Assembly: GCA_017550145.1 (NCBI GenBank)
Contig: JAFZQG010000004.1
Span: 124,001-188,000, forward strand
Direction: 5' to 3'
DNA from: Erysipelotrichaceae bacterium
GTDB lineage: Bacteria; Bacillota_I; Bacilli_A; Erysipelotrichales; Erysipelotrichaceae
DNA length: 64,000 bases
In this document: piece after piece, positions 55,883 through 58,860 of the stretch
Position numbering within the stretch: the stretch's first letter is position 1
Layout: every line of letters starts with the position of its first letter
Notes under the pieces: generated by a model
Told to the model about the DNA's origin: nothing
Seen by the model: only the letters and a program-made list of their open reading frames with translations
The model's database searches: none
Made by a program: the position numbers and the translations under genes

Positions 55883-57337
55883 ATGAGTAAAATGAGTAAA
55901 GTCAACGGTCTTCCGAAGGATTTCCTCTGGGGTGGTGCTTTGGCAGCCAACCAGATGGAAGGTGCCTGGAAGGAAGGCGGTAAGGGCTGGTGTCTGGCCG
56001 ACATCAACCGTGCACAATATGATCTTGATCCGAAAGACAGATACAACAACGAGATCGACACCGCTTATATCGAAAAGGCAATTCATGAAGATGATCTGCT
56101 TTACCCGAAAAGAAGAGGTATCGATTTCTATCACACCTATGAGGAAGATATAAAGCTTCTGGCCGGTTCTGGCATGAACAGTTTAAGAACCTCCATCAAC
56201 TGGGCAAGAATCTTCCCGAATGGTGATGACAGCGAACCGAACGAAGAAGGTCTGGCTTTCTATGACAGACTGTTCGATTGCATGATCGCAAACGGACTTG
56301 AACCGTTAATCACCTTAAGCCATTATGAGATGCCTTTAAATCTGGCTACCAAATATAAGGGTTGGTATTCCAGAGAAGTCATTGATTTCTTTGTGAAATA
56401 TTGCGAAGTATGTTTCAGAAGATATAAAGGCAAGGTAAAAAAGTGGATCGTTGTTAATCAGATCAACCTGATCATCCACGAAAGTTTCAATCACTTAGGA
56501 ATTGCTGCCGATAAGGTAGAAAACCTTCAGGAAGCAAAATATCAGGGCGTACATAACGAAATGGTTGCCTGTGCCAAGGCTACCAAGATCGGACATGAGG
56601 TTGATCCGGAAAACCAGATCGGTATGATGTTCTGCTCCAACCTGACTTATCCGTGCTCACACAGACCGGAAGATGTTTTCTGGAATATGAGACATAATCA
56701 GATGGAATACCTATATGGTGACATCATGGTCAGAGGTTACTATCCGGGCTATGCCTTAAGATATTATGACGACCATGATATTCATATCGAATTCTATCCG
56801 GGTGATGAAGAAGCCCTCAGAGAAGGAACTGTCGATTTTGTTTCCTTGAGCTATTACTACACCAGACTTTCTGGCGAGGAACCTTATCTTCATACCAGAC
56901 TCGGACAGATTCCGAATCCCGATATCCCTGCTTCCGACTGGGGCTGGTCGATCGATCCAATCGGTTTGAGAATTGCCCTTAATGAATACTGGGACAGATA
57001 TCAGAAACCATTATATATTACCGAAAATGGTCTTGGTGCCTATGATAAAGTTGAAGCCGATGGTTCAATTCATGACCAGTATCGTATCGCATATCTGAGA
57101 GACCACATCAAAGCTTTTGAGGAAGCGGTCAAAGACGGCGTTGATTTGAGAGGTTATTATCCTTGGGGTCCTATCGATATTATCAGCTGTTCATCCAGCG
57201 AGATCGAAAAACGTTATGGCTTCATCCATGTCGATTATGACAACTACGGAAACGGAACCGGTAAACGGTCATTAAAGGATTCCTATTACTGGTATCAGAA
57301 AGTCTGCGCTTCCAACGGCGAAGATCTGGGTGAATAA
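55883..57337 (+). CDS. GH1 phospho-glycosidase with Gln at the acid/base position (myrosinase-like), copy B
   Basis: 484 residues, GH1 throughout: '[21 protein letters not shown]' start, nucleophile Glu381 in '[11 protein letters not shown]', and the phosphate-binding '[17 protein letters not shown]'. The acid/base Glu is replaced: '[10 protein letters not shown]' has Gln193 (CAG) where the family has N-E. Among GH1, plant myrosinases show this Glu-to-Gln change and cut thioglucosides whose aglycone leaves without acid help. A phospho-thioglucosidase or another enzyme for good leaving groups is inferred. Confidence 0.88.
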
Positions 57338-57352
57338 ATTTACACCTTAACC

Positions 57353-57387
57353 AAGCAGCTGTTTTCCTCCTTTAACGGCTGCTTTTT
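57353..57387 (+). terminator. Intra-operon terminator between the two GH1 genes, CCTCCTTT in its loop
   Basis: AAGCAGC / GCTGCTT with an 18-base loop containing CCTCCTTT (57366-57373), then TTTT. Lies 15 bases after the first GH1 gene. Confidence 0.65.
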
Positions 57388-57408
57388 AAAGAAAGAAGGA
57401 ACAGAAAC

Positions 57409-58860
57409 ATGAAACAGTTAACAAAAGGTTTTCCGAAGGATTTCCTGTGGGGCGGTGCGGTAGCAGCCTGCCAGATCGAAGGCGCCTGGGATCTTGATGG
57501 CAGAGGACCTTCAACTTCCGATATCCACAGATACAACGACAAACAAGACCATGCCCACATTGAAAAAGAAGGCGGCGATACCTTAGCCGGTATTGCAGCA
57601 GCTTTGGCAGATAAAGAAGGATATTATCCTAAACGTCATGGCATCGATTTTTATCATACCTATAAAGAAGATCTGGCTTTAATGAAGGAAATGGGCTTTA
57701 AGGCTTTCCGTACTTCTATATCGTGGTCCAGGATCTTTCCAAGAGGAGACGAAGAAGAGCCTAATGAAGCTGGCTTAAAATTCTATGACAATCTGATCGA
57801 CGAGATCATTAATGACGGTATGGAACCGGTAATTACAATGTGCCACTACGATATACCTTTATATCTGGTGACTGAGTATGGTGGTTTTGCGAACAGAAAA
57901 GTTGTTGATTTCTTCGTAAAATATGCCTGTCTCTTATTGGAAAGATATAAAGGAAAAGTAAAATACTGGATCGTCTGCAACCAGGTGAATCTCTTGCCGA
58001 CGGTAATGTTCGGCTGTCTGGGTATCTATGATGATCAGACAACACCCGATAAAATGCCTGAACTGATGTATCAGGCAGCCCATAATCAGTTTGTGGCCTG
58101 TGCTAAAGTCAAGCAGCTGGGATCAAAGATCGATCCAGAAGCGATGCTAGGTACGATGGTTGCGGATGGTACGATGTATCCTGCTTCATGCAAGCCAAAA
58201 GATATAATTGCGGCAATGAATAAAAACCGTTATCAGCAGTACTTCTTTGCGGACGTGCAATTAAGAGGTGAATATCCGGTATATATGTTGAGATACTTTG
58301 AAAATAACGGCATCCATATCGAGATCACTGAAGAAGAAGAAAAACTGCTGAAGGAGAACACTATGGATTTTCTGGCAATGTCTTTCTATTCAACAAGTGT
58401 TGTTGACGCGGATAAGGATGGAGTAAAACCTTATGTTGCTTCACAGAATCCGAATCTTGAACCTACACCTTGGGAATGGCGTGCCGATCCCCTAGGATTC
58501 TATAATGCCTTATGTCAGCTTTCCGATAGATACCATGTTCCTTTGATGGTAGCGGAAAACGGCTTCGGTGCCTATGACAAAGTAGAAGACGGTGCAGTTC
58601 ATGATGACTACAGAATCGACTATCTGAGAAAGCATATTGAACAGTTAAGACACGCAATCGAAGACGGTGCAGAAGTCTTCTCTTATCTGAGCTGGGGTCC
58701 GATCGATATTGTTTCCTCTTCAAGTGCCGAAATGTCCAAACGCTACGGATATATTTATGTAGATCTGGATGATTACGGTAAAGGAAGCGGCAAGCGGCTG
58801 AAGAAAGATTCGTTTGACTGGTATAAGAAAGTCATTGCCAGTAACGGCGAAGAACTGTAA
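57409..58860 (+). CDS. GH1 phospho-glycosidase with Gln at the acid/base position (myrosinase-like), copy C
   Basis: 483 residues. '[21 protein letters not shown]' start, nucleophile Glu383 in '[12 protein letters not shown]', phosphate site '[19 protein letters not shown]'. As in its neighbour, the acid/base is Gln: '[10 protein letters not shown]', Gln192 (CAG). The two proteins are clear paralogues but well diverged, so the Gln has been kept, not just recently gained. Probably acts on the same class of PTS-imported glycosides with different aglycones. Confidence 0.88.

Follow-up and report, generated by a model that had tools for sequence, protein, structure and literature searches.

The 6-phospho-beta-glucosidases of GH1 include E. 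coli BglA, AscB and BglB. Glycosidases are assigned by family, and a GH1 protein is assumed to use two glutamates. Replacement of the acid/base Glu by Gln is the change that crystallographers themselves introduce for halting turnover. Gan1D-E170Q, a 6-phospho-GH1 with such an engineered Gln, was co-crystallized with intact cellobiose-6-phosphate (4zfm). The same residue occurs naturally in plants. The classical QE-type myrosinases (TGG) are GH1 enzymes with an acid/base Gln and a Glu nucleophile (PMC6691170), and they combine their Gln with a basic residue as the binding partner of the substrate's sulfate (PMC3947992). Companilactobacillus farciminis employs a PTS-pbgS route for sinigrin, in which PTS uptake is followed by GH1 hydrolysis of the 6-phosphoglucoside; CfPbgS, the enzyme that cleaves sinigrin-6-phosphate, shares 48–50% identity with BglA and AscB of E. 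coli (PMC8660893).

Listeria monocytogenes harbors an operon of the same type as the one described below, including a GH1 with Gln at the acid/base position (Gln type) that is 97% identical to the L. cossartiae member. The operon (L236:7085-12462) is flanked by a succinate-semialdehyde dehydrogenase gene and a Vga ABC-F gene and is taken here, by synteny, to be lmo0914-0918, with lmo0917 as the GH1 gene. It is annotated only as a cellobiose-type PTS with a beta-glucosidase, and the papers found contain no test of its function. lmo0917 is transcribed, its transcripts being more abundant in soil extract (PMC3179493), and those of lmo0915 are elevated in the infected mouse spleen (PMC2679221); both studies name the genes by similarity only.

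Two adjacent GH1 genes with Gln at the acid/base position

The window, i.e., the whole stretch of 64,000 nucleotides analysed here from an Erysipelotrichaceae bacterium, contains two adjacent GH1 genes with the following features.

55883..57337, + strand: GH1 protein 1, Gln type (484 aa; Gln193, Glu200, Gly354, nucleophile Glu381)
56459..56461, + strand: CAG codon of Gln193 of protein 1, acid/base position (motif WIVVNQIN)
56480..56482, + strand: codon of Glu200 of protein 1, seven residues past Gln193 (from the alignment of 73 Gln-type and 27 Glu-type rows)
57409..58860, + strand: GH1 protein 2, Gln type (483 aa; Gln192, no Glu at +7 (Val199), Glu356 between two Trp, nucleophile Glu383)
57982..57984, + strand: CAG codon of Gln192 of protein 2, acid/base position (motif WIVCNQVN; numbering by alignment)
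58474..58476, + strand: Glu356 codon of protein 2 (WEW), at the position that is Gly354 in protein 1

Proteins 1 and 2 are 48% identical and score 383 and 405 bits, respectively, against Pfam Glyco_hydro_1 (cut-off 22.6). Alignment places Gln in both where the solved 6-phospho-beta-glucosidases have their acid/base Glu, while the nucleophile motifs (ITENG with Glu381 in protein 1, AENG with Glu383 in protein 2) and the 6-phosphate loop, S..KRY(G), are intact. A first-pass annotation had reported these CAG-encoded Gln residues in place of the GH1 N-E, the intact E-N-G and phosphate loop, and a third GH1 of the window that keeps N-E-I. The ORFs, motifs and codons agree with it on each point, and the third GH1 (ORF 42969-44519) reads WITFNEIN. 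The genome encodes ten GH1 genes, of which only these two are of the Gln type. The degenerate DNA pattern K-V-K-x-W-x-x-x-N-Q-[IV]-N matches the window twice, in both cases in these genes (0 expected), and the reversed-pattern control gave no match across the 316 genomes of the order, so chance is ruled out.

The AlphaFold2 models have pLDDT values of 95.9 (protein 1) and 94.8 (protein 2). The closest solved fold to the protein 1 model is 6wgd (Z 57.2, rmsd 1.4, 455 aligned residues, 50% identity), and for the three branch members compared, no solved protein in the top-ranking matches was closer than this Glu-type structure. Compared with GH1 6-phospho-beta-glucosidases in general (BglA, AscB and BglB; 6wgd, 2xhy, 3pn8 and 4ipn), the fold is shared (Z 54–57, rmsd 1.4–2.1, 44–50% identity), as are the nucleophile, the phosphate loop, the Trp pair and the linkage to a PTS. 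However, the Gln-type proteins differ in having Gln for the acid/base Glu, in the loss of Thr at position −3, in the gain of Glu200 or an acidic residue at 354/356, and in forming a separate branch.

Origin, conservation and spread of the Gln-type branch

Orthologues of protein 1 in 11 congeners are 93–95% identical and those of protein 2 in congeners are 79–91% identical, all with Gln. The dN/dS ratio is about 0.02–0.035 with synonymous sites near saturation, and the Gln codon is mixed (CAG 92, CAA 42); thus, it is the residue Gln itself that is held. The two diverged copies that the first-pass annotation had placed in a PTS operon are accordingly under strong purifying selection. An assembly error or a decaying gene was also considered and is ruled out by the protein 1 orthologues of the 11 congeners and a dN/dS of about 0.03.

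A phylogeny of N-Q GH1, suggested as a check in that annotation, was computed from the 73 Gln-type and 27 Glu-type rows with the acid/base column masked. The two types fall on opposite sides of one branch (SH-aLRT 96), and the tree requires a single Glu/Gln change (shuffled mean 24). The degenerate N-Q pattern is matched in 52 of the 316 genomes and 18 of the 80 genera of the order. As a check on bias from the NQ motif itself, the order was also searched with a motif near the C terminus, which is independent of the acid/base position and covers the protein-1-like majority, the protein-2 group (SSSS) falling outside it. This search returned 63 genes, three of them cut by contig ends; all 60 readable genes encode Gln, 59 as N-Q and one as I-Q, and none encodes Glu. 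In this sample of sequences, the Glu-to-Gln change therefore has the look of an old event that happened once and was never undone. One Gln-type member (L063:1501-2925) has Ile for the invariant Asn before Gln (IIQIN) and is possibly further altered or decaying.

A collection of species genomes yielded at least 97 further loci with a Gln-type GH1, in at least six phyla (among at least 116 matching stretches). The matches listed include Erysipelotrichaceae, Lachnospiraceae, Clostridium, Clostridioides, Listeria, Enterococcus, Lactobacillaceae, Bacillaceae and Paenibacillus, as well as Actinomycetota, Enterobacterales, Chloroflexota, Spirochaetota and Synergistota, the last two being represented in this sample by metagenome bins only. 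Several genera carry many copies, with at least seven in one genome among the matches listed. The branch reaches bacteria of the gut, food, soil and bees in addition to L. monocytogenes. No description of a bacterial Gln-type GH1 was found in the literature searched, which lay mostly outside subscription journals. The branch is real, large, old and widespread; it is a variant within a known family that, as far as could be found, is undescribed and apparently has not attracted study. Since it is large, of single origin, strongly conserved and equipped with its own PTS, many genes annotated as "6-phospho-beta-glucosidase" or "cellobiose PTS" probably serve another substrate or use another mechanism.

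Operon context

The two GH1 genes are the last of a PTS gene set behind a divergent activator gene (PRD/EIIA activator, IIB, IIB, IIC, IIA, GH1, GH1).

51432..53339, − strand: divergent PRD/EIIA transcriptional activator (PF00874, PF00359, HTH_11)
53448..53771, + strand: PTS IIB, first copy, GTG start (PF02302)
53820..54155, + strand: PTS IIB, second copy (PF02302)
54203..55432, + strand: PTS IIC, lactose/cellobiose superfamily (166.8 bits against the TIGR00410 cut-off of 236)
55516..55878, + strand: PTS IIA, lactose/cellobiose family (PF02255)

IIB-IIC-IIA-GH1 with a PRD regulator is repeated at most loci across the branch. The IIC proteins of four Gln-type operons, that of the window included, score 154–193 bits and thus lie below the cut-off of 236 for the curated Lac/Cel model TIGR00410. 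The C. farciminis PTS-pbgS system differs in having a fused beta-glucoside-type IIBCA and a GH1 close to the Glu-type BglA and AscB (48–50%). A bglF-type beta-glucoside PTS is present at seven loci, four of them with a bglG-type antiterminator, and it adjoins the Gln-type gene in most of the seven, which favors a beta-glucoside as the substrate. No recurrent kinase, isomerase, esterase or sulfatase was found among the neighbors of Gln-type operons, consistent with glucose-6-phosphate as the product. The window is unusual in its two tandem IIB genes (53448-54155) for one IIC and one IIA, sister operons having mostly a single IIB. In Enterococcus gilvus, lacABCD adjoins the Gln-type operon.

Among approximately 100 loci, an EamA transporter gene lies in or beside the operon at nine, and a gene for a YczE-like membrane protein at nine others (L151:2543-3502, L183:1236-1868 and 16 other loci). 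These genes mostly stand directly behind the GH1 gene and overlap it. The name YczE is used loosely, as the three of nine proteins tested score far below the family cut-off. The two families are unrelated, and their members may be aglycone exporters.

Protein-2-like genes often adjoin a second GH1 gene, either of the Gln type or of a remote Glu type. The latter (WTTINEQSIIVQYWTQ; L106:4302-5798, L186:1-1428 and L044:3022-4452) is found next to protein-2-like genes in several species, filling the place that protein 1 has in the window. Elsewhere in the window, two short ORFs (48351-48605 and 48934-49221) have double-glycine leader-like starts (LEKVTGG and LENVNGG) and possibly encode bacteriocin-like peptides, and 59523-61790 encodes an amino-acid-permease-like membrane protein apparently fused to a GGDEF domain.

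Proposed catalysis without the usual acid/base residue

The Gln-type proteins are best read, with a probability of roughly 0.55, as an ancient GH1 subfamily of 6-phospho-beta-glucosidases, set apart by one Glu-to-Gln change and active on an imported glucoside without the usual acid/base residue. None of the branch sequences examined has regained Glu. In this reading, a dedicated PTS would take up a beta-glucoside and add a phosphate to O6 of its glucose. Through its intact phosphate site, the Gln-type GH1 would bind the resulting 6-phosphoglucoside, and the Glu nucleophile would form the glycosyl-enzyme. Glucose-6-phosphate would enter glycolysis and the aglycone would be discarded, in some relatives perhaps through an EamA or YczE protein that is co-transcribed. 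The missing proton donor leaves two main mechanistic choices: an aglycone of the aryl or acyl type that departs readily, or a different carboxylate, located in the aglycone loops (Glu200 of protein 1, Glu356 of protein 2), that would take on part of the acid/base work. With Gln in the place of the acid catalyst, the chemistry should differ from that of textbook GH1. By analogy with Gan1D-E170Q and its intact cellobiose-6-phosphate, the Gln-type proteins may turn over ordinary glycosides only very poorly.

The residues that accompany Gln bear on this choice. The remaining residues with a known part in binding sugar or phosphate do not vary: Gln24, His147, Tyr148, Tyr325, Trp355, Trp428 and the nucleophile Glu381 are invariant in the 73 Gln-type rows, as are the 6-phosphate residues Ser435, Lys443 and Tyr445, and all 73 have Gln in place of the acid/base Glu. 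Thr190 at −3, present in 26 of 27 Glu-type rows, is nearly always gone. Conversely, the +7 position, which presumably belongs to the aglycone pocket (judging by myrosinase structures), is Glu in 53 of 73 Gln-type versus 0 of 27 Glu-type rows. All 53 rows with Glu200 have Gly354 and none has an acidic residue there, whereas Glu or Asp occupies 354 in 13 of the 20 rows that lack Glu200. Altogether, 71 of 73 rows are acidic at 200/201 or 354/356. The pattern, with two to three independent switches behind it, suggests a need for a carboxylate near the aglycone, either in catalysis or to bind an aglycone that is polar.

In a bolder version of the second option, the acid/base role would have passed entirely to Glu200 (to Glu356 in the protein-2 group), and ordinary O-glycosides would be cleaved in a rearranged active site. 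The carboxylate would have moved from its strand-4 site to an aglycone-loop residue, namely Glu200 or, for the protein-2 group, Glu354/356, and Gln would have been retained on strand 4 to hold water or the leaving atom. The near-universal acidic residue, its restriction to Gln-type rows at position 200 and the exclusion between the two sites speak for such a move, which would provide an internal substitute for the ascorbate of plant myrosinase. However, the exclusion reflects only two to three independent switches and is not significant in an independent-pairs test, a carboxylate at 200 or 354–356 could merely bind a polar or cationic aglycone, and two members carry neither acidic residue. Full relocation is thus a tentative proposal, with odds of somewhat less than one in three.

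It is rather unlikely that the proteins are catalytically dead and bind or sense a sugar phosphate. Loss of the acid/base residue, and the use of acid/base Gln mutants as inactive traps (4ze5, 4zfm), would fit a pseudoenzyme, but the nucleophile Glu is invariant (73/73) and the Gln-type GH1 is often the sole glycosidase beside a dedicated PTS, where a hydrolase is expected.

The first-pass annotation had proposed, by comparison with plant myrosinases, the uptake and cleavage of phosphorylated thioglucosides or other activated glycosides. As a bacterial counterpart of myrosinase, the Gln-type GH1 would cleave thioglucosides (glucosinolates) that the PTS has phosphorylated, with ascorbate, for example, as the external base. 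The PTS-linked, active-looking 6-phospho-GH1 with Gln stands, and extends well beyond two gut genes; the alternative of other activated glycosides may hold; the thioglucoside analogy is not supported and is now improbable, slightly more so than a dead enzyme. The Glu-to-Gln change with a Glu nucleophile is indeed that of plant myrosinases, and Companilactobacillus does take sinigrin through a PTS and a 6-phospho-GH1 (PMC8660893). However, myrosinases depend on a basic residue to bind the sulfate (PMC3947992), and at the two positions compared in the 6-phospho-GH1 alignment, the 73 Gln-type rows have Lys or Arg at +7 in none (with Glu in 53) and Lys at +6 in two. Furthermore, E. coli BglA and AscB, which are implicated in glucosinolate breakdown (PMC8660893), are Glu-type by sequence comparison; since these are the relatives of CfPbgS, Gln neither marks sinigrin-6-phosphate cleavage nor is needed for it. 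The branch is common in bacteria of the rumen, soil, bees and other sources, and a link to crucifers is not evident. Unlike plant myrosinases, its members are bacterial, lack the basic +7 residue and are predicted to be cytoplasmic and 6-phosphate specific, and the tree places the origin of their Gln separately, inside the 6-phospho group.

Deamidation of Gln to Glu after translation, which would yield a conventional enzyme and is known in general to occur spontaneously in acid/base Gln mutants, is very improbable, as Glu would be expected back at times by single mutation but is seen in none of the 60 genes, and the neighboring Thr190 is also changed, suggesting a different active-site environment.
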